From assembly GCF_030296055.1 (NCBI RefSeq), contig NZ_AP027370.1, positions 744,001 through 808,000 of the forward strand: 64,000 nucleotides of DNA, read 5' to 3'. The stretch is from Hydrogenimonas cancrithermarum (lineage in GTDB: Bacteria > Campylobacterota > Campylobacteria > Campylobacterales > Hydrogenimonadaceae). The position numbers and the translations under genes were made by a program. The notes beneath the pieces are model-generated. The model did not search any database. It was not told where the DNA came from and saw nothing but the letters and a program-made list of their open reading frames with translations. Each line of letters starts with the position of its first letter. The stretch's first letter is position 1. This document shows, one piece after another, positions 2,270 to 11,204 of this stretch.

Positions 2270-5224
2270 TTATACATCATTTTCACTGTAGCGCAACTGT
2301 AACCCGGCATCGGTCATCACAAATCCCTGAATAATCACTCTCCCTTCGTGAACCATCTTGTGATGCTTCTTACATAAAGGAATCAGATTGTAGCGATGGT
2401 TTTGATGAAAATGGCCGATGCGCCCCGCTTCATCCGCTTCCGCTTGTGGGGCGATATGGTGGACCTCATCGACCGGTGCACCGCAAAGCGCACAGCTGCT
2501 CAGATAGAGCTCTTTGTTGTAGCGGCTGCGCTTCTTCTTTTTCAGCCGCTTCAATCCCCTCCCCTCATCGCCAAGCAATTCACGAATCTCGTAGGCGGTC
2601 TCGATGAAGCTCTTGTCCATATGAAGCGACTTCGCAAACTCCAGCCCATAGAGTGTGCTTCCCACGCCTGGCATCAGTTTCCTGTTGTAGACGAGAGCGT
2701 CTTTCGCTTCGTCATATTCAACCCCGAGATGTAAAAAGACAATCCCCCTCAGCTCGGTTACGGTTTTCAGTTCGGTCAGTTTGTGTAGATGCGTCGCGAC
2801 GATAAAGAGCGTATCGAGCTGATAGAGCCGTTTCACCGCACTCGCCACGATCGCCAGAGCCGATTCCGTTTCGGTTCCGTGGCTGATCTCGTCACCCAGC
2901 ACCAGTGACCCGCGACCGGCACGGTTGAAAATATTTTTGAGCTCCATCATTTCGATCGCGAAGGTGCTGAGCCCTTTGTAAAGGTTGTCTTTGCTGACGA
3001 TGCGGGTAAAGAGCTTGTCGAAAAGGTGGAAGCGCATCGAAGCCGCCGGGACAAAGAAGCCCGCCTGCGCCATGATAACCGCCATACCGACACTCTTCAT
3101 CAACGAACTCTTGCCGCTGGAGTTGATGCCATAGAGCAGGACCCCTTTGACGGGCTGACCGTCGCTCGACTGCAGCGTGACGTGGTCGTGTTCGAGCGTT
3201 TCGGGCAGATCGCCCATCAGCAGGTCATTCGGGATGTAGATACCGTTCTCTTCGCGCGATTCGATCAGCGGATGGCGAAGCCCGACAAACTCCAGCGTCT
3301 GCTCCTTTTCCGATTGTCGGCCGAGAATTTCAGGCCGGGCATAGTTGTACTGCTGCGCCGCCCGAGCCGTCGCGATCGCCACATCGAAACGTCCGACAAA
3401 TGCGATAATCTGCTCCAGCAGCTGCGCATAACGCTTTTCGAGCAGTTCCAGCGACTCGACATAACTCTGTTTTATCAACGCCACGATACGTGCCTGGTTG
3501 GCCATTATCACCTTCGAGATGTCGTCGATCAGCTTCGACGTGATCTTGACGCTGTTTTTGAGCTTTTTGTAGTTGAAGTCACGCAGAAAGTAGTGGTTGC
3601 CCTCCAGCAGCAAAAAACTCTCCATCAGATCCTTCTCGATCATCCCGAAACGGGTACGGGTGACATTCAGGAAGTACCCTTCGCTCTCGAGCCACCCGAT
3701 GCCGACATACTCCGTATCGTTCTTTTCGCCCCGTTCGAAAAAATTTTCGATATGCAGCCGCACCGCTTCCAGTTTGTCGAGCTCTTTTCTGTTCTCCTCG
3801 ACAATCTGGTCGACAAAGAGATTGATGCCGGGCTGAAAGATGTTGCTCTCGATCTGGTCGCGGCGATATTTTCCGCACTCTTCCAGCACGAAGGTCTTCT
3901 CCAGCTCCCGTGCGAAACTCTCGATCTGCACCCGCAGATCCTCTTCGACTTCGACACCCACACCTTTGGCTTCCCATACCAGCTGTTCGAGGGCTTTGAG
4001 CGAATCGTGCAAGTAGACGATCTCGAACGGATGGAGCTTGCCGAGCTTGATGCGCCGCAGAATGCGCTCGAGGTCGTATACCTCTTTGAGGGTGTTGGAG
4101 AAGTTCTGGGTATGCTCCGTCACCTTCTCGGCCAGATCGTAGCGGCGTCTCAGCTCCTTTTCGTCGCAGATCGGGTTCAAAAGCCGCTCTTTGAAGAGGC
4201 GCTTGCCGATGGCGGTGGAGGTGAGGTCGATGAGTTTGAGAAGCGTCATCTCGTCCGGGTCACGGCTGATGACGTTGAGCTGCTCGAGCGCATTGTTACC
4301 CAGATAGACGAAATGCTGCCCACCCAGGAAAACGGGACGGTTCATCTTCTCGATCAGCGCCGCGTCATGCTCGATGATGAAATCGATCAGCAGTGAGAGC
4401 GACTCCGAGGCGTAGGGGTACCGCTCGAGATCGAGATACTCGATGGGGCTCAGAAACGAGCGGATGCCGTAGACGTTGGCGAAGAGTTCGTTCTGGTAGG
4501 CGATCTTGTGGCGCGTCTTTCCGACCGTATAGCTGATGTGCCCCTCGATCTCCAGATAACGGACGATCCATTCCGAATCGATCGACGCGTCGTTGAGCGT
4601 GAGCAGCAATTCGGAAGTGTTGTAGCTCTGCAGCTGGTTGAAAATCTCGTCGAGCGCATAGGTTTTGTCCTCACGCGTTCCGTGGACTTCGTTGAGCCAC
4701 GTTTTGCCGGTGCTGACGTCAATGGCGCTGTAGCCGCAGGAGTAGATCCCTTTGTTGATGTCGACGATAAGCGAAACGATGTAGTTTTCGCTTGGCTCGA
4801 CCAGGTAGTCGAAGTTGGTTCCGGGTGAAAGGATGTTGGCGATGTAGCGCTTGACGTTCGGCGGTGCCCCCTTCTGACGCACCAGAACGATCGTATATTT
4901 TTTGCTCTGTACGAGTCGTGAGAGATAGCGGTCGAGCGAGACGGCCGGCACACCCGCCATCATGGGGTTGGCGACGGAATTTTCAAGAATCGTTTTGTTT
5001 TTGCGCGTCAGCTGGATATTGAGCAGTTCGGCGATCTCTTTTGCTTTACCGACTTTCAGCTCGTCATTGTTGACTTCATAGACTTCGAAAAAGGTGCCAA
5101 TCTCCATTAACACGACCGTATCGGAGCCGTATTTGGCTTCGAAAATCTTCTGAAGTTCAAAATAGATATCGGTCAAAAGCCGCTTTTTGTCGTTTAAAAG
5201 CTCGTTGATCGCCTCAATATGCAC
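2270..5224 (-). CDS. mutS7: MutS7-type mismatch-repair protein with C-terminal HNH endonuclease domain
   Basis: A 984-residue protein. Residues 1-120 form a MutS mismatch-recognition domain with the Phe-x-Glu motif as FFEVY (residues 45-49). Connector, lever and clamp regions follow, then a MutS ATPase with Walker [13 protein letters not shown] near residue 700 and a DE-SHGTE Walker B/signature region. The last ~80 residues are an HNH nuclease: CxxC, then HH, then N, then CxxHH. MutS plus HNH is the architecture described for the MutS7 subfamily of Epsilonproteobacteria, giant viruses and octocoral mitochondria. It would recognise mismatches and nick DNA without a separate MutL/MutH. It is monocistronic, and no mutL is seen nearby. 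Confidence 0.9.
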
Positions 5225-5302
5225 CCGTTTTTACCTTCAATTAATATGGAACGATTATATCGCATAGCGACTTTTATTTACGTTTGATTCACAAAAAAGG
5301 GC

Positions 5303-5308
5303 TATAAT
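5303..5308 (+). promoter_or_regulatory. -10 box of the ompA-family lipoprotein gene
   Basis: A perfect TATAAT lies 28 bases upstream of the ATG at 5336. An AGGAG ribosome-binding site sits at 5325-5329. There is no good -35 box at the right spacing, which is usual for Campylobacterota sigma-70 promoters. Confidence 0.7.
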
Positions 5309-5335
5309 CTTTAAAACCAAAAGCAGGAGCAATCC

Positions 5336-6052
5336 ATGAAGTTTCCAACCCAAGCGGTTTCGTTTTCGCTGGCTGCACTTTTGATCTTCGGCGGATGTGC
5401 GGCCAAAAACGGCGAAGCGCCGAACGATGCCGAGCACACCAAAGAGGGCGTTCTGATAGGCACCCTCGTCGGAGCGGCACTCGGTGCGGTGACAAGCAAA
5501 CATCATAAGGGGAAAAACGTGGCGATCGGCGCCGCGATCGGTGCCGCGGCCGGCGGAGCGATCGGCTACAGTCTCGACAAACAGGCCCAGGAGGTCGCCG
5601 ACTCGATGGATACCGACGTAAGCGCCAACGAAAAAGAGGCCGCCAAACATCGAGACATCATCGTCACTAAGCACGACAACTATGTCAAGATCACCTTCAA
5701 AAGCAAAATGATGTTCGAAACCGATGCGGCCGATCCGACACCGGAAGCGAGAGAGAAGATCGCACGCCTTGTGGATGTTTTGAAAAAATATCCGAATACC
5801 ATCGTTCAGGTCGTAGGCCATACCGACAGCCGCGGATCGTACGACTACAACCTCAAGCTGTCACAAAAACGCGCTTTCAATGTCGCCAATATGCTCAAAA
5901 ACCTTGGTGTCACCAACCAGATATACGCCAGAGGTTGTTCTTTCAGCAAGCCGCTGATGCCAAATGACTCTCCCGAAAACATGGCGATCAACCGCCGTGT
6001 CGAGATCTACCTCTATCCGAGCGAGGATAAAGTTATCGACGCCTGCCGCTGA
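5336..6052 (+). CDS. OmpA-family peptidoglycan-binding lipoprotein with glycine zipper
   Basis: A 238-residue protein. A lipoprotein signal peptide ends in LIFGGC, with Cys21 as the lipidated residue. Residues ~40-85 form a glycine-zipper segment (GTLVGAALGAV...AIGAAAGGAIGY). Residues ~115-235 are an OmpA C-terminal domain, with VVGHTDSRGS and the RRVEIYLYP end. It should sit in the outer membrane and bind peptidoglycan non-covalently (Pal/YiaD type). Its last 20 bases overlap the end of the convergent glutamate-synthase-like gene. Confidence 0.92.
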   Translation: MKFPTQAVSFSLAALLIFGGCAAKNGEAPNDAEHTKEGVLIGTLVGAALGAVTSKHHKGKNVAIGAAIGAAAGGAIGYSLDKQAQEVADSMDTDVSANEKEAAKHRDIIVTKHDNYVKITFKSKMMFETDAADPTPEAREKIARLVDVLKKYPNTIVQVVGHTDSRGSYDYNLKLSQKRAFNVANMLKNLGVTNQIYARGCSFSKPLMPNDSPENMAINRRVEIYLYPSEDKVIDACR

Positions 6053-7802
6053 GATGCAGGCGTGACCTGAAGTAATCCTCGATATCGTCATAGATGTATC
6101 CGTCCGGATCTTTATAAAAAAGATCGGATCTTTCGACCTCGTCGATCGAATGCTTGCCCATAACCGCCAAAAGGCCGACAACCCCGTCGACAAGCCTTTC
6201 GTGATAACGGGCGATATGGCGTGACTTCTGCTCGACCAGAAACGACGCACGCCTGCGCCTATCCTGTGTCGCCAACCCCACCGGGCAGTGGCGGCCGCCC
6301 GCTCCGCTGCACTCCCTGGCACGGATACACCCCGCACTCATCATAAACCCTCTGGCGATTCCTACAAGATCGGCACCAAGCGCCTTGAGCACGACGACGT
6401 CATCCGGTGTCAGCACCTTTTCACTGCCGATCAGCTTGACCTTCTCCCTGACCCCGGCATCACGCAGCGCTCTGTCGGCGATATGGATCGCCTCCTGGAT
6501 CGGCAGCCCCACCCGCATCATCGTCTCGAGCGGTGCCGCTCCGCTGCCGCCGTCGCCGCCGTCGATCGTCAGGAAATCGGGATAGGCCTGCGAGCCCGAT
6601 TCGACCCTCACCCGAATCTCCTCTACGATCGGATCGATACCCTCCCGCGACGAGATGACGAGCTTGATCCCCGCCGGCTTGCCGGAGAGTGTTTTGAGTT
6701 TCCCGAGAAAATCGAAAAGGGCAGCGACCGAATCGTAATAAGGAAAACGGTCGGGACTGAAGAGATCTTCGTGCGGCTCGACACCGCGGTAGTAAGCGAT
6801 CGCGTCGGTCACCTTCACAGCCAGCAGTTTCCCGCCCGTCTGCTTGGCCCCCTGGGCGAGCTTGATTTCACTCATCCTGCAAAAGCGCATCACTTTCTCG
6901 TAACGCACTTCGTCGAACTCCCCCTTCCCATCGCGGACCCCGTAGAGCCCGCTGCCGATCTGAAAGACGATATCCGGAAGGTCCTCCAGTACCGTTTCCG
7001 GAAAATCGGAGAGCGGACGGCTCCAGTCGACTCTGAAACAGGCCATATGCTTTCTGTCGAAAAGAAAGGTCTCGGCCTCCTTTTTCGGAAGAACGAGGGC
7101 ACGGTAGAGATCGACCGCGGCCACGTCGTTGAAAAAGAAGCCAAAGAGGTAGTAGAGACTCTTTGCGAACCACGTCCCTTCGTAATACTCGAACCACTTC
7201 TGGCCACGGGGATCGCATCGATGCGTATAGAAGAAATTGGTCGTCAGGCTCCCCTCTCCCGTATTGATGGGGAATCCGCCCAGATACGCCCCTTTCGCGA
7301 AGGCGCGTGTCGCTTCCGGCGAGATCGCACCGTCACTCATCGCGCTTCGTCCGATGATGGAGCGTGATCGAAACGGCGTTTCGCACACCTCTCCGAACGT
7401 CACCCAAAAACGGCGGTCCACCTCCTCTTCGTTCAAGACGCGCGAAGCGTTTTTCAACCCGAAAATTCCGGTCGCTATCGGCTGGCCGGGCGAGAACGAG
7501 GCAAGCAGGGCACGCCCTTCAGCCGCGTCGTAGACCCACTTCACCTTATCGAACGATTCGTAGAATTTCTCGTCACCGAAATATTGGCGCATCGGATCGC
7601 GGATCAGGTAGAAGAAGTAGCGCAACCGTCCGATCAGCGGATAGTTGATCAGCAGCTGGTTCTCCCGCTGCACGAAACGATCGTAGATCAGCACCAGCAG
7701 CGCGACGATCATCGCGACGATCGCGGCGACTTTGAGCAGAAACATCAGAAGCGGAAAGCTGAATACATCGGCCCGCCGGGTAAATTCGAGGAACTCTTCC
7801 AT
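6033..7802 (-). CDS. FMN-binding glutamate synthase-family protein, membrane-anchored
   Basis: A 589-residue protein. One transmembrane segment lies at residues ~18-42, followed by a glutamate synthase FMN/central domain. The FMN barrel shows DGGDGGSGAAP, and GCIRARECSGAGGRHCPVG near the C-terminus carries the three Cys that hold the 3Fe-4S cluster in GltB. No N-terminal glutaminase domain is present, so it is not a full GltB; the archaeal/stand-alone type is the better match. The electron donor and true substrate are unknown. It lies 23 bases after the DoxX gene on the same strand, so it may be co-transcribed with the RiPP operon upstream. Confidence 0.85.
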   Translation of the reverse strand: MEEFLEFTRRADVFSFPLLMFLLKVAAIVAMIVALLVLIYDRFVQRENQLLINYPLIGRLRYFFYLIRDPMRQYFGDEKFYESFDKVKWVYDAAEGRALLASFSPGQPIATGIFGLKNASRVLNEEEVDRRFWVTFGEVCETPFRSRSIIGRSAMSDGAISPEATRAFAKGAYLGGFPINTGEGSLTTNFFYTHRCDPRGQKWFEYYEGTWFAKSLYYLFGFFFNDVAAVDLYRALVLPKKEAETFLFDRKHMACFRVDWSRPLSDFPETVLEDLPDIVFQIGSGLYGVRDGKGEFDEVRYEKVMRFCRMSEIKLAQGAKQTGGKLLAVKVTDAIAYYRGVEPHEDLFSPDRFPYYDSVAALFDFLGKLKTLSGKPAGIKLVISSREGIDPIVEEIRVRVESGSQAYPDFLTIDGGDGGSGAAPLETMMRVGLPIQEAIHIADRALRDAGVREKVKLIGSEKVLTPDDVVVLKALGADLVGIARGFMMSAGCIRARECSGAGGRHCPVGLATQDRRRRASFLVEQKSRHIARYHERLVDGVVGLLAVMGKHSIDEVERSDLFYKDPDGYIYDDIEDYFRSRLHLSGRRR

Positions 7803-7825: not shown

Positions 7826-8269
7826 TTACGCGTCCTCTTTGAAGATCATACGGTCGAGACTGAAACGCCCCGGACCGTGCGCCACAAGCGCGAAAAGCAT
7901 GATCATATAATAGAGCGGTATCTCGAAACCGTTCTCGCCTGCGGAGAAGCCATGCGGCAGATGCACTGTGAAGATCGCCACCATCATCACGACGATCAGT
8001 GGCACCGAGATGAGGCGTGTCAGGAATCCCAGTGTCAGCAAAACGACACCTGTCAGCTCCGTCGTCGCCGCCATATATGCATTGAGTGTCGGAAACGGCA
8101 TGCCCATCGAGCCGAACCATTCAGACACGGCCGAGATGTCGCTCCACTTCATCATCGCCGGTTCGTAAAACCCGTAAGCGAGAATCAGACGAAGAAAAAG
8201 GAGCGAAACACTTTTAAAATAACCCGCCGCTCTTGAAAATTCGATATATGCCTCTTTAAGTGCCATCAT
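7826..8269 (-). CDS. DoxX-family membrane protein (HvfX-like)
   Basis: A 147-residue protein with four hydrophobic segments and the DoxX pattern (LRLILAYGFYEPAMMKW, then TGVVLLTLGFLTRL). DoxX proteins often accompany DUF692-type RiPP operons, where the Haemophilus/Legionella version is called HvfX. It is the fourth gene of the operon running from 10087 down, 23 bases after the HvfC-like gene. Its biochemical role is unknown; a quinone- or redox-linked membrane role is inferred from DoxX relatives. Confidence 0.85.
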   Translation of the reverse strand: MMALKEAYIEFSRAAGYFKSVSLLFLRLILAYGFYEPAMMKWSDISAVSEWFGSMGMPFPTLNAYMAATTELTGVVLLTLGFLTRLISVPLIVVMMVAIFTVHLPHGFSAGENGFEIPLYYMIMLFALVAHGPGRFSLDRMIFKEDA

Positions 8270-8292
8270 GGCCTCCTTCGCTGTGGGTACCG

Positions 8293-8970
8293 CTATTTCG
8301 GCACCAAAACTCCAAATTTCAGGAGTCGTTTGAGTCCTTTCGCAAGAACCGCTTCGGCATCTTCGACACAGAGTCCATAGGTTTTGGACAACTGCTTTAC
8401 AATCTTCCCGAGCGGCCGCTTGCCGTCGCAGCGTTCAAGAAGATCACCCATGAAAGGTGTCAACGCCATCCATGCCACACCGCCCAAAGGGGTCTGGTAT
8501 ATGGCCACCCTGTAGCTGCCTTCTGGTTTGAAACGCCCGTACATGACGGGGTATTTCAGCTCTTCGATACGGGCACATCGGCCCAATCGATAGCGTTTCG
8601 AAAAATCGACCTTTCGGGCGCGGGGCTTTTTGCAGGGCACCATCGTCAGCGCTATCAGCGTCCACTCGAACCGGAGCAGATCCTTCAGCCACTTTCGTTT
8701 TTTCATTTTCGAAACCGCAAAGCGGCGAAACGCTTTGGGCATCTTCCACATAAAGGGGGACTCCGGCCCGCTGGCGATGAAGGCTTTGACCAGTTTTTCC
8801 CACTTTTTTTCACTCAGCTGTGCCCGAAAGAGCGGATAAGCCGCGCGGAGCGTTTCGTCGAACCGGTAGAAGATCAGCTTTTCGTAAATATCTCCATTGG
8901 TGTACGCATCCGTTTGTGCCGACCGTACCGACTTGAAGAAACGCTCCTGAATCTCTCTTTCACGCCGCAT
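8293..8970 (-). CDS. HvfC/BufC-like partner protein of the MNIO enzyme (DUF2063-related)
   Basis: A 225-residue soluble protein. The N-terminal part resembles the DUF2063 partner of DUF692 enzymes (helical segment with ERFFKSVRS, later LLRFEWTLIAL). The C-terminal ~70 residues (LLERCDGKRPLGKIVKQL) look like a PqqD/winged-helix-type peptide-binding unit, which would suit delivery of the precursor to the enzyme (inference). It overlaps the MNIO gene by 11 bases, so the two are translationally coupled. Similarity to DUF2063 is modest by eye; position in the operon is the stronger evidence. Confidence 0.75.
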   Translation of the reverse strand: MRREREIQERFFKSVRSAQTDAYTNGDIYEKLIFYRFDETLRAAYPLFRAQLSEKKWEKLVKAFIASGPESPFMWKMPKAFRRFAVSKMKKRKWLKDLLRFEWTLIALTMVPCKKPRARKVDFSKRYRLGRCARIEELKYPVMYGRFKPEGSYRVAIYQTPLGGVAWMALTPFMGDLLERCDGKRPLGKIVKQLSKTYGLCVEDAEAVLAKGLKRLLKFGVLVPK

Positions 8971-9766
8971 GGTGGATCTCCCGCATCCTCTCGAACTCTT
9001 TCATCAACGTCTCCAGCGGTGGAACGTTATTGTCGCGCTCGAGCATCACCGGGAGCCTTTTTTTCGCCATCACATACGCCATCAGATCCCACACCTCCTC
9101 TTTGACCGGCATCCCGTGCGTATCGATAAAAAGATCGTCCCGATATTCGAGATGCCCCGCGATGTGGCAGTAGGCCACACGCTCCAGATCGATCGCATCG
9201 ATGAAAGCTTTCGCGTCGAAACGGTGGTTGAAACCGTTGACGAAAACATTGTTGATGTCCAGAAGCAGCTTCGCTCCGCTACGCTCCAAAATCGCGCCGA
9301 TGAACGCCGTCTCGTCCATTGTCGACTCAAGCACCGTGTAGTAGGTGGGATTTTCGATGATGAGCGGGCGCTCGAGAATCTCTTCGATACGGGCGATCTT
9401 TTCCGTGACCGCATCGGCCATCGTCTCCGTCATCGGAAGCGGCAGAAGTTCGTAACTTTGAACACCGTCGAGCGACGTGAAGCTCAAATGCTCCGAATAG
9501 TGTTCGATGCCGTAGCGCTCCAGAAATTTTTTGAGCCGTCCAAGATGGATAAGATCGAGACTGCCGACATCGCCGAGTGAAAGGGACAATCCGTGGGCGA
9601 CGACGGGAAACGCTTCGCATATTCGCTCGAAACGTTTCGCCTCTTTCCGGTTCAGGTGCATCATATTTTCAGGCACCACCTCAAGAAAGTCGATACGCTT
9701 CGCGTACGAGGGTATCTCGTCGATGAAATCGTCCCGAAGCCCCAGTCCGCATCCTTCGACCATCAT
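8960..9766 (-). CDS. MNIO enzyme (DUF692), RiPP cysteine-modifying multinuclear iron oxidase
   Basis: A 268-residue TIM-barrel protein of the DUF692 (MNIO, BufB/HvfB/MbnB) family. Candidate metal ligands in conserved blocks are HGLSLSLG, SEHLSF, ENPTYY, DINNVFVN, and CHIAGH followed by DTHG. In characterised relatives the di- or tri-iron centre oxidises Cys in the peptide precursor to oxazolone/thioamide (MbnB) or thiooxazole (bufferin). The gene directly follows the Cys-rich precursor gene by three bases and overlaps the partner gene. It probably modifies some or all of the GKCG cysteines. Alternative starts MM are adjacent. Confidence 0.92.
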   Translation of the reverse strand: MMVEGCGLGLRDDFIDEIPSYAKRIDFLEVVPENMMHLNRKEAKRFERICEAFPVVAHGLSLSLGDVGSLDLIHLGRLKKFLERYGIEHYSEHLSFTSLDGVQSYELLPLPMTETMADAVTEKIARIEEILERPLIIENPTYYTVLESTMDETAFIGAILERSGAKLLLDINNVFVNGFNHRFDAKAFIDAIDLERVAYCHIAGHLEYRDDLFIDTHGMPVKEEVWDLMAYVMAKKRLPVMLERDNNVPPLETLMKEFERMREIHHAA

Positions 9767-9769
9767 CGT

Positions 9770-10087
9770 CTACTTCATGCTCCCGCCGCATTTTCCGGCG
9801 CCGCACTTGCCCTTCATCTTTTTCTTCTCCTCCTTCATTTCACCGCCACACTTCCCTTTGCCTTTTTCTCTCATCTCCTCTCTCGTTTTTGCACCGCATT
9901 TCCCTTTCATCTCCGACTTCATTTCACCTCCGCATTTTCCTTTGCCTTTCTCTTTCATCTTCTCTTTCATTTTCGATCCGCATTTCCCGGATCCGCAGCC
10001 ATTCATACCGGCGACTGCAACGGTCGTCCCCGCAGCCATCGCCCCCAAAATCACTGTCATCGCTTTGCGTCGGTTCATCTTTGCCAT
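9770..10087 (-). CDS. HvfA/bufferin-like RiPP precursor with six GKCG motifs
   Basis: A 105-residue protein when started at the ATG at 10087, which has an AAGGA ribosome-binding site; an earlier ATG at 10129 lacks one. The first ~25 residues are a signal peptide (MNRRKAMTVILGAMAAG). The rest is almost only Gly, Lys, Glu, Met and Cys and holds six GKCG motifs, plus one CGSG before the first. Each GKCG is separated by a charged KMKEKMKEK-type spacer. Copper-binding bufferins and HvfA precursors carry EGKCG-type motifs whose Cys is modified by the MNIO enzyme encoded next. The likely role is periplasmic copper (or other metal) sequestration; this is inferred from the family. Confidence 0.88.
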   Translation of the reverse strand: MAKMNRRKAMTVILGAMAAGTTVAVAGMNGCGSGKCGSKMKEKMKEKGKGKCGGEMKSEMKGKCGAKTREEMREKGKGKCGGEMKEEKKKMKGKCGAGKCGGSMK

Positions 10088-10248
10088 CTTCGTTCCTTTT
10101 TTATTGAGATAATGTATTGTATTTACCAATTGTGCAAGGAGTGTGTAGGTTCACGATTTCGAGATTCGGTAATGGGACCGATTCGACGGTCGCGGAAAAC
10201 AGAAAAACGGAAACAGGTTTTTTAACACACAATTTAGGTTAACTTCAT

Positions 10249-10254
10249 TATAAT
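10249..10254 (+). promoter_or_regulatory. -10 box of the rhodanese-like gene
   Basis: TATAAT in an AT-rich stretch 41 bases upstream of the ATG at 10295; an AAGGAG ribosome-binding site precedes the ATG. The 207-base gap between this gene and the divergent RiPP precursor (10088-10294) holds no other clear feature, and I see no recognisable copper-responsive operator. Confidence 0.6.
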
Positions 10255-10294
10255 TAATATCTATAGAAACAATAACTTTGAAAAAGGAGAGAAT

Positions 10295-10699
10295 ATGTCA
10301 ACACTGGATCAAAACATCGTCGAAAGAGTCGAAGCGGCGATCGCGCTCGACAAAGAGAAACCGGGACTCGGAAATGTCGATATGGAAAAAGGGATGGAGC
10401 TGATACGTGAAGTGGGCGCTGTTTTGCTGGATGTTCGTCCGCCGGCCAAAGTGAGTGGCGAAAACGCCGAAGAGGCCGATATTCCGGATGCCTACTACAC
10501 CCCTTATACGGAATTTACGACCTATCTCGACATTCTGCCGAAAGACAAAACGACACCGATCCTCGTAGCATGCCTCAAAGGCTGGTTTGCCAACCGGGTA
10601 ATGGGGTACCTCGAAGCCCTGGGCTACGAAAATGTCTATGTCCTCGGCGCCAACATCGAAGATATGATCGCCGCGCACAAAGCACACGTACAGAAGTAG
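10295..10699 (+). CDS. Rhodanese-like domain protein, cytoplasmic
   Basis: A 134-residue single-domain protein without a signal peptide. The fold signature is AVLLDVRPPAK and, at the active-site loop, CLKGWFANR followed by GYENVYVLGAN. The catalytic Cys is in place. The loop differs from the usual CRxGxR, with bulky Trp-Phe in it. It could be a sulfur carrier in sulfur metabolism or a low-activity thiosulfate:cyanide transferase; the substrate cannot be told. It is monocistronic and has its own promoter. Confidence 0.85.
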   Translation: MSTLDQNIVERVEAAIALDKEKPGLGNVDMEKGMELIREVGAVLLDVRPPAKVSGENAEEADIPDAYYTPYTEFTTYLDILPKDKTTPILVACLKGWFANRVMGYLEALGYENVYVLGANIEDMIAAHKAHVQK

Positions 10700-10748: not shown

Positions 10749-11204
10749 CTATTCCGTCAATGACGAAAAATCGGCCGAACCATAAATCTTTCGAAGCACT
10801 CCGATATCTTCCTTTACATAATCTCCGTTTTTGACACGCTCCAAAAAGTAGGAAATATAACGTTTCGCCCCACGTGAATCACCGAGAACCGCCGATGCCA
10901 AAGCGGCATACTCGGCAGCGAAATCGTGTCCATGCTTCAAAGCGTTTTTGGCCGAAGCCAGCGCCTTTTTGGGTTCTCCAGCAAGCAGAAAATACCATGC
11001 CGCCTTGGCACGTGCCCCATCGATATCGACACTCTCGGCATACGCTTTGCAGTAGTGCTGTTTCGTCAGATCACCCTGACGCTTGACATAATAGTCACAT
11101 TGTAGCATGAGTTTTCCGACACTGCATCCTTTGCACTCCGCAGCTTCCACATTCAGTATTGTCCCTGAAACGAAGAGTGCCGCAATTAAAAAGAATTTTC
11201 TCAT
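10749..11204 (-). CDS. Exported TPR-like protein of unknown function
   Basis: A 151-residue protein with a cleavable signal peptide (ending near NVEA-AEC). Four Cys lie in the first 60 residues of the mature part (CKGC, C, C), which suggests disulfides or metal binding. The remainder is helical with Ala-rich TPR/SEL1-like spacing (AKAAWYFLLAGEPKKALASA). It starts 25 bases after exbD and probably belongs to that operon. I do not recognise a specific family. Confidence 0.75.
   Translation of the reverse strand: MRKFFLIAALFVSGTILNVEAAECKGCSVGKLMLQCDYYVKRQGDLTKQHYCKAYAESVDIDGARAKAAWYFLLAGEPKKALASAKNALKHGHDFAAEYAALASAVLGDSRGAKRYISYFLERVKNGDYVKEDIGVLRKIYGSADFSSLTE

Follow-up and report, generated by a model that had tools for sequence, protein, structure and literature searches.

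A divergent operon of predicted HvfA type in Hydrogenimonas cancrithermarum, and relatives that keep its peptide with and without the MNIO enzyme

Introduction

The locus considered here raises the question of what a bacterium makes from a short gene whose product is a row of Gly-Lys-Cys-Gly sites spaced by a few kinds of residues, and of what the enzyme genes directly behind it do to that product. It lies in Hydrogenimonas cancrithermarum (genome G000, 2.38 Mb in 3 contigs), in a stretch of 64,000 nucleotides of contig NZ_AP027370.1 that we call the window. In the best comparable system, HvfBC turns the Cys residues of the EGKCG motifs of HvfA into 5-thiooxazoles, a Sec signal is used in a leader-like manner and copper is bound (PMC13419390, PMC13097082). 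Our reading, to which we give a probability of about 85%, is that the window operon makes a copper-binding peptide of the HvfA/oxazolin type (captophorin, Lys-Cys group); the chemistry, the function of the leader, the export, the metal and the physiological role we infer from comparison with such relatives.

Results

The operon and its precursor

Five co-directional genes stand on the minus strand, precursor first, with gaps of 3, -11, 23 and 23 bases between them. The features are as follows.

9770-10087, minus strand: HvfA-like precursor, 105 aa
10018-10087, minus strand: N-terminal leader/signal region with the h-region motif ILGAM at residues 13-17, a putative recognition site for the MNIO and its partner
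8960-9766, minus strand: MNIO (DUF692, HvfB-like) maturase, 268 aa, PF05114 E 2.4e-89, starting 3 bases past the precursor stop
8293-8970, minus strand: HvfC-like partner, DUF2063 with a PqqD/RRE-like C-terminus, 225 aa, overlapping the MNIO gene by 11 bases
7826-8269, minus strand: HvfX/DoxX membrane protein, 147 aa, PF07681 E 6.7e-20, NF050144 133.5 bits against a cut-off of 80
6033-7802, minus strand: membrane-anchored FMN glutamate-synthase-domain protein, 589 aa, PF01645 E 7.2e-60, 23 bases 3' of DoxX and likely the last gene of the operon
10088-10294, minus strand: upstream/promoter region, common to the operon and a divergent rhodanese-like gene (10295-10699, plus strand)

The first-pass annotation of this DNA had described a RiPP precursor with six GKCG motifs, and both the open reading frame, at exactly these positions, and the motifs were confirmed. 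The gene starts with an ATG at 10087, with an AGGA ribosome-binding-like sequence upstream, and encodes MAKMNRRKAMTVILGAMAAGTTVAVAGMNGCGSGKCGSKMKEKMKEKGKGKCGGEMKSEMKGKCGAKTREEMREKGKGKCGGEMKEEKKKMKGKCGAGKCGGSMK. A seventh Cys had been missed (the seven are residues 31, 36, 52, 64, 80, 95 and 100); it belongs to an NGCG Cys-Gly site, in MNGCGSGKCG, and in the alignment relatives have a (S/K)CGAGKCG pair at this place. Lys, Gly, Glu, Met and Cys account for 69 of the 79 core residues. Position 1 of the motif is Lys in four of the six cases (KGKCG) and Ser or Ala in the rest, and a motif scan of the whole 105-aa peptide found no EGKCG, which is rare in Campylobacterales even beside an MNIO (3/29 precursors). 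The remark that known bufferins have fewer EGKCG motifs therefore fails on both sides: the window peptide has none to compare, and there are six modifiable Cys, in three AEGKCGEGKCG units, in HvfA of H. influenzae (PMC13419390), seven sites in FonA (PMC13097082) and as many as 58 Cys in the longest family member (PMC12452194). For the 29 MNIO-linked precursors of Campylobacterales the median is seven Cys. A role in Cu(I) binding had also been proposed for the Met-rich spacer KMKEKMKEK, but near orthologues (e.g. in G003) lack it and comparison lends the idea no support; Met makes up about 7% of the core across the MNIO-linked precursors of the order.

Signal peptides were assigned by inspection throughout. 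That of the precursor covers residues 1-26, with a K/R n-region, the hydrophobic h-region VILGAM, an AVA-G site and a twin-arginine-like NRRKAM. The RR pair occurs in six of the seven MNIO-bearing Hydrogenimonas precursors and is missing in G016 and in other families, so Tat export was not adopted on the strength of NRRKAM, and the signal is compatible with either Sec or Tat.

NF050137, the NCBIfam model of the HvfA-family domain, gives the precursor 21.0 bits against a cut-off of 19.5, a narrow pass, and the genome-wide scan with this model did not list the peptide although it lies above the cut-off when scored as a protein. Precursor-like peptides stand 5' of MNIO genes in 28 other genomes of Campylobacterales, in the same precursor-then-MNIO order at the inspected loci, and dN/dS between pairs of MNIO-linked precursor genes is 0.06-0.19; because of these two observations the precursor is not a chance open reading frame. 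Longer antisense frames cross it (9531-10112 and 9593-10225, plus strand), which we take as stop-free by composition. We read a third antisense frame, 8260-9105 (plus strand) over the HvfC-like gene, in the same way, although it stays open in G007 too and careless annotation might report it as a gene.

The DUF692 enzyme, partner and DoxX protein that had been named as neighbours are all borne out, by PF05114, DUF2063 and HvfX, and the operon runs one gene further, to the PF01645 protein. The MNIO, the single one in the genome, is 76% identical to a homologue on a Hydrogenimonas MAG contig (NZ_JAOZPV010000046.1). Its His/Glu/Asp blocks are HGLSLS from residue 58, SEHLSF from 91, IIENP from 136, LDINN from 169, CHIAGH from 200, FIDTHG from 213 and LERDN from 242, and it aligns with PDB 3bww (E 7.9e-54) through the metal-binding His/Glu/Asp blocks with the residues conserved. 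The neighbourhood of the 3bww protein has been judged a bona fide RiPP cluster of the HvfA/captophorin kind (PMC13097082). The FMN protein gene comes after DoxX in G007 and G015 as well, and likewise, in two other families, in cassettes that lack an MNIO; among inspected loci it occurs solely with Hydrogenimonas MNIO operons or at MNIO-less loci. A scan of the operon and its upstream region found no convincing sigma-70 promoter and no RNA element.

Two further proteins of the window are conserved around such loci. A MutS-family protein with a C-terminal HNH domain (2270-5224, minus strand; PF00488, PF13391), which we take to be MutS7-like, lies on one side. On the other, at 10749-11204 (minus strand), is an apparently exported protein of 151 aa that matched no Pfam family and has the sequence CKGCSVGKL close to the N-terminus; most Hydrogenimonas loci conserve it, with ExbD to one side and either the KCG peptide or MutS to the other.

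Relation to known families

By its sequence, the window operon is best placed as a divergent system of the HvfA/oxazolin type ("captophorin", Lys-Cys group). The PF05114 gene lies beside the precursor, 3 bases downstream, as in the captophorin cluster, and of the two parts that mark a PME-type 1 partner (DUF2063 with an RRE) the first is above cut-off (PF09836, 43.6 bits, cut-off 27.2, E 3.6e-11) and the second, at 16.4 bits, is sub-threshold. We regard the system as a putative relative of HvfABC rather than an orthologue, because the HvfB model gives the MNIO 303.9 bits where the equivalog cut-off is 360, the HvfC model NF050145 gives the partner 71.4 bits where the cut-off is 142, and NF050188, the HvfA equivalog, had no listing for the precursor in the NCBIfam search.

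Two other assignments were set aside. A bufferin in the strict sense does not fit, as there is neither a DUF2282 Pfam match (Buf1) nor a match to a 6- or 12-Cys domain (Buf2), the seven Cys lying in GKCG-type repeats. Nor is the operon of the methanobactin type, the MbnB model scoring 48.6 bits against a cut-off of 325 and the partner being a DUF2063 protein.

The same scores bear on whether the MNIO could install something other than 5-thiooxazoles, such as the oxazolone-thioamide of methanobactin, or perform excision chemistry. The enzyme is divergent and below the equivalog cut-offs, and Lys replaces Glu at motif position 1, which would suit a changed chemistry. Yet the closest curated models are HvfB and BufB (260.5 bits), far ahead of MbnB, the partner is of PME-type 1 and KCG is kept, and we consider a different modification very improbable.

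The leader motif

The h-region of the precursor holds a hydrophobic-hydrophobic-Gly-small motif (ILGAM, LLGAA and similar) found in 29/29 MNIO-linked precursors and in 8/40 MNIO-less ones (Fisher p 1.7e-12; p <= 5e-5 with labels shuffled within families), a contrast to be read knowing that the pattern was picked after the data had been seen and that relatedness inside families persists. Within Hydrogenimonas the counts are 7/7 with an MNIO against 2/7 without; in family f8 the corresponding figures are 11/11 and 0/7, the latter rising to 3/7 with Phe admitted. The MNIO-less Hydrogenimonas clade has a sequence of the IAGAM type where the window precursor has ILGAM. Looser patterns point in the same direction, but with the loosest the contrast within Hydrogenimonas is gone (7/7 against 7/7). 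KCG itself is retained in MNIO-linked and MNIO-less peptides alike. This distribution suggests that the h-region motif may be the site by which the MNIO and HvfC recognise their substrate and, on the simplest view, that the KCG sites serve a purpose of their own.

The same locus without the enzyme

Searching 150 relatives with the peptide turned up genomes that lack an MNIO, and 399 genomes were used for the order as a whole. ExbB-ExbD and the MutS-HNH gene flank the locus in Hydrogenimonas. The MNIO cluster stands between these genes in three genomes (G000, G007, G009), and in G015 it lies beside ExbB-ExbD with the MutS gene on another contig. Seven genomes (G001, G002, G005, G010, G013, G014, G017) have a KCG peptide alone there, without an MNIO, the locus being identified by ExbB-ExbD/PilZ and/or MutS neighbours as far as the contigs extend. 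Three genomes (G006, G008, G011) have neither peptide nor cluster there, and in G016 DoxX alone is left, the MNIO being located elsewhere. In a five-gene tree the seven orphan genomes group together as a single clade (UFBoot 100), here clade X.

A hidden MNIO was considered for the orphan genomes and rejected. PF05114 found nothing over its cut-off in the checked MNIO-less genomes (best E 0.009; positive controls detected), and DUF2063 gave nothing better than weak sub-cut-off matches across the 31 MNIO-less genomes tested, none of them above cut-off in the six clade-X genomes tested, with G000 and G007 detected as positive controls. Several MNIO-less genomes are incomplete MAGs; ten (G002, G032, G082, G134, G229, G308, G323, G350, G357, G365) consist of one or two contigs and are 99-100% complete. 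Nor are the orphans pseudogenes: their dN/dS values are 0.07-0.36 and their frames are intact in finished genomes. Three clade-X pairs gave 0.14, 0.07 and 0.15, the last two with near-saturated dS, and other MNIO-less pairs 0.16-0.36, so that the orphan KCG peptides are under purifying selection. Precursors without an MNIO have been counted in 67/2583 genomes (PMC12452194, Table 3), and orphan KCG peptides are thus not wholly new. Some MNIO-less KCG peptides (L117, L115, L112, L126, L151, L152) have lipoprotein-type signals (e.g. LAGC, LTGC, FVGC) and are probably membrane-anchored.

Since close relatives keep the peptide without the enzyme, it may also work unmodified, and the pattern suggests that KCG peptides function either so or with other enzymes. 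One could go further and regard the window peptide as mainly an unmodified thiol and Met metal binder, metallothionein-like, with the MNIO as an affinity-adjusting accessory and the MNIO-less relatives as the base function. Clade X, with its KCG peptide at the same MutS-flanked locus, agrees with this, as do the KCG sites kept under selection there and in other MNIO-less genomes, the KCG motifs fused to YtkA domains in two MNIO-less genomes and the orphan peptides linked to Cus genes. We nevertheless find it quite unlikely for the window itself: an MNIO gene, where there is one, immediately follows that of the precursor, and the h-region motif never varies there, so that modification is probably selected in such genomes; in the family members described in the literature almost all sites are modified.

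Linkage to copper genes

In family f8, the orphan peptides of MNIO-less genomes follow cusCBA-type copper efflux genes, mostly with a YceI gene between. An MNIO cluster lies directly 3' of CusA in G397 and beside YceI in G374. The CusA of G308 retains, by alignment, Met573, Met623 and Met672 of E. coli CusA, residues that take part in binding Cu(I)/Ag(I). At the window operon no copper gene or copper regulator was found among the neighbours, and the two-component pair near it matched no metal-sensor model above cut-off. Behind the MNIO clusters L060, L064, L067 and L068, in genomes of families f20, f8 and f5, lies a response regulator/histidine kinase pair in the same direction; such pairs beside the MNIO clusters of relatives likewise had no metal-sensor model above cut-off.

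The window peptide is probably the precursor of an MNIO-modified, copper-binding peptide, an assignment to copper that we make because of the published family members and the linkage in family f8. The earlier label of a RiPP precursor in a copper-type MNIO operon can be kept as probable, with NF050137 and HvfX above their cut-offs and copper efflux linked in another family, though not in the sense of a strict bufferin. That the operon instead serves another stress (oxidative, other soft metals or sulfide) we judge unlikely. Copper is one inducer of similar clusters, and gold and oxidative stress are others (PMC13097082), and the window operon has a rhodanese-like gene and an FMN-type protein as company and no copper gene, all of which would agree with such a role; on the other hand, characterised 5-thiooxazole peptides generally bind copper and relatives adjoin a copper-type CusA.

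KCG peptides beside GMC flavoenzymes

An MNIO is present in 38 of the 399 Campylobacterales genomes. The HvfA domain is matched at E <= 0.01 in 73/399, in 65 of them above cut-off, and some of those in the range E 0.001-0.01 are short ones that may have arisen by chance. A tally of two sets of matches gives 52 genomes in which both the HvfA domain and a Gluconate_2-dh3 small subunit are matched. In 22 of the 52 they are no more than about 5 kb apart, against an expectation of roughly 0.25-0.5 genomes (an estimate for random placement in 2.2-Mb genomes). The motif revealed five more genomes with a KCG peptide by a GMC pair (G341, G238, G154, G357, G389), which makes 27 genomes of eight families with the peptide beside a GMC flavoenzyme and its small subunit; in none of the 27 is there an MNIO over the cut-off.

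The small-subunit gene comes first and the GMC oxidoreductase, with PDB 6a2u (E 1.2e-52) and 7w2j as nearest structures, second. Between the peptide gene and that of the small subunit there is no gap in G018 and G076, where the two adjoin or overlap. The cassettes (e.g. L129:225-2641, L076:4427-6836, L074:1476-8403, L121:1571-6224) usually include HvfX/DoxX, above the HvfX cut-off, and sometimes the same FMN protein. The DoxX of the window is 65-75% identical to that of MNIO-less cassettes and 52-61% to the DoxX of other families' MNIO operons. Two of the 22 encode fusions to YtkA, with a signal peptide and a KCGAGKCG-type motif, beside the GMC pair and without an MNIO:

L150, around 4948-5337: KCG-YtkA fusion of G127
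L154, around 885-1259: KCG-YtkA fusion of G069

Within Hydrogenimonas the GMC pair is confined to clade X, where six of the seven genomes have it, at another locus; the pattern fits a single event, but it is only suggestive.

A literature search found no paper that treats an MNIO together with a GMC oxidoreductase, and in the literature searched we did not find the GMC pairing, the same-locus contrast or the decay of the leader motif. It is conceivable, although we lean against it at present, that KCG (HvfA-type) peptides form a wider class of exported metal-binding peptides with an exchangeable maturation module, which would be an MNIO with DUF2063, a periplasmic GMC enzyme with its small subunit, or nothing. 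The GMC enzyme would then either modify the peptide through a new chemistry that needs no MNIO or use it as a metal or redox partner, the h-region Gly motif would be the recognition element of the MNIO that decays without the enzyme, and the Hydrogenimonas locus would show both states.

Discussion

If the window operon works as its relatives do, the precursor would carry a Sec-type signal peptide serving also as its leader, and the HvfC-like partner and the MNIO would recognise it, probably through the hydrophobic-Gly-small motif of the h-region. The MNIO, a multinuclear iron enzyme, would oxidise the Cys of the GKCG motifs, six or perhaps all seven, to 5-thiooxazoles with a loss of 4 Da each. 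After export and cleavage behind AVA-G, the peptide would buffer metal outside the cytoplasm by binding Cu(I), and HvfX/DoxX and the FMN protein may assist at the membrane.

On this reading, 5-thiooxazole peptide systems would extend to Hydrogenimonas in the Campylobacterota, with the altered motif KGKCG. The genus offers a natural experiment in which a KCG peptide stands at one locus with and without the modifying enzyme, and it makes testable what the thiooxazole contributes to copper binding, what the MNIO reads in a Sec signal, and whether KCG peptides function, or are modified, where there is no MNIO.

Among known systems, the GMC protein of the relatives, which is not part of the window, resembles FAD glucose dehydrogenase and fructose dehydrogenase and shares with them a Gluconate_2-dh3 small subunit; unlike in those enzymes, no cytochrome subunit was noted near it, and its neighbours are a KCG peptide, in most cases DoxX, and in some the FMN protein. 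The window operon itself is most like hvfABCX of nontypeable Haemophilus influenzae, with a precursor, an MNIO, a DUF2063 partner, DoxX/HvfX, a predicted N-terminal signal peptide and six GKCG motifs (PMC13419390). It differs in having KGKCG, SGKCG or AGKCG for EGKCG, an additional CG site, motifs that are mostly single and 12-16 residues apart where H. influenzae HvfA has tandem pairs, and the added FMN glutamate-synthase-domain gene. With fontiphorin (fonABC of Fontimonas thermophila) and gonophorin (ngoABC), of the captophorin Lys-Cys group, it shares Lys-Cys-Gly sites and an MNIO with a PME1 partner (PMC13097082). FonBC, however, fails to process Arg at motif position 1 (PMC13097082), whereas this position is mostly Lys in the window, so that the substrate rules must differ here. 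Bufferins Buf1 (DUF2282) and Buf2 (6/12 Cys) are exported peptides that an MNIO modifies and that bind copper, and their clusters have the same partner and DoxX genes (PMC12452194); in contrast to their folded 4- or 6-Cys domains the window peptide is of the KCG repeat type.
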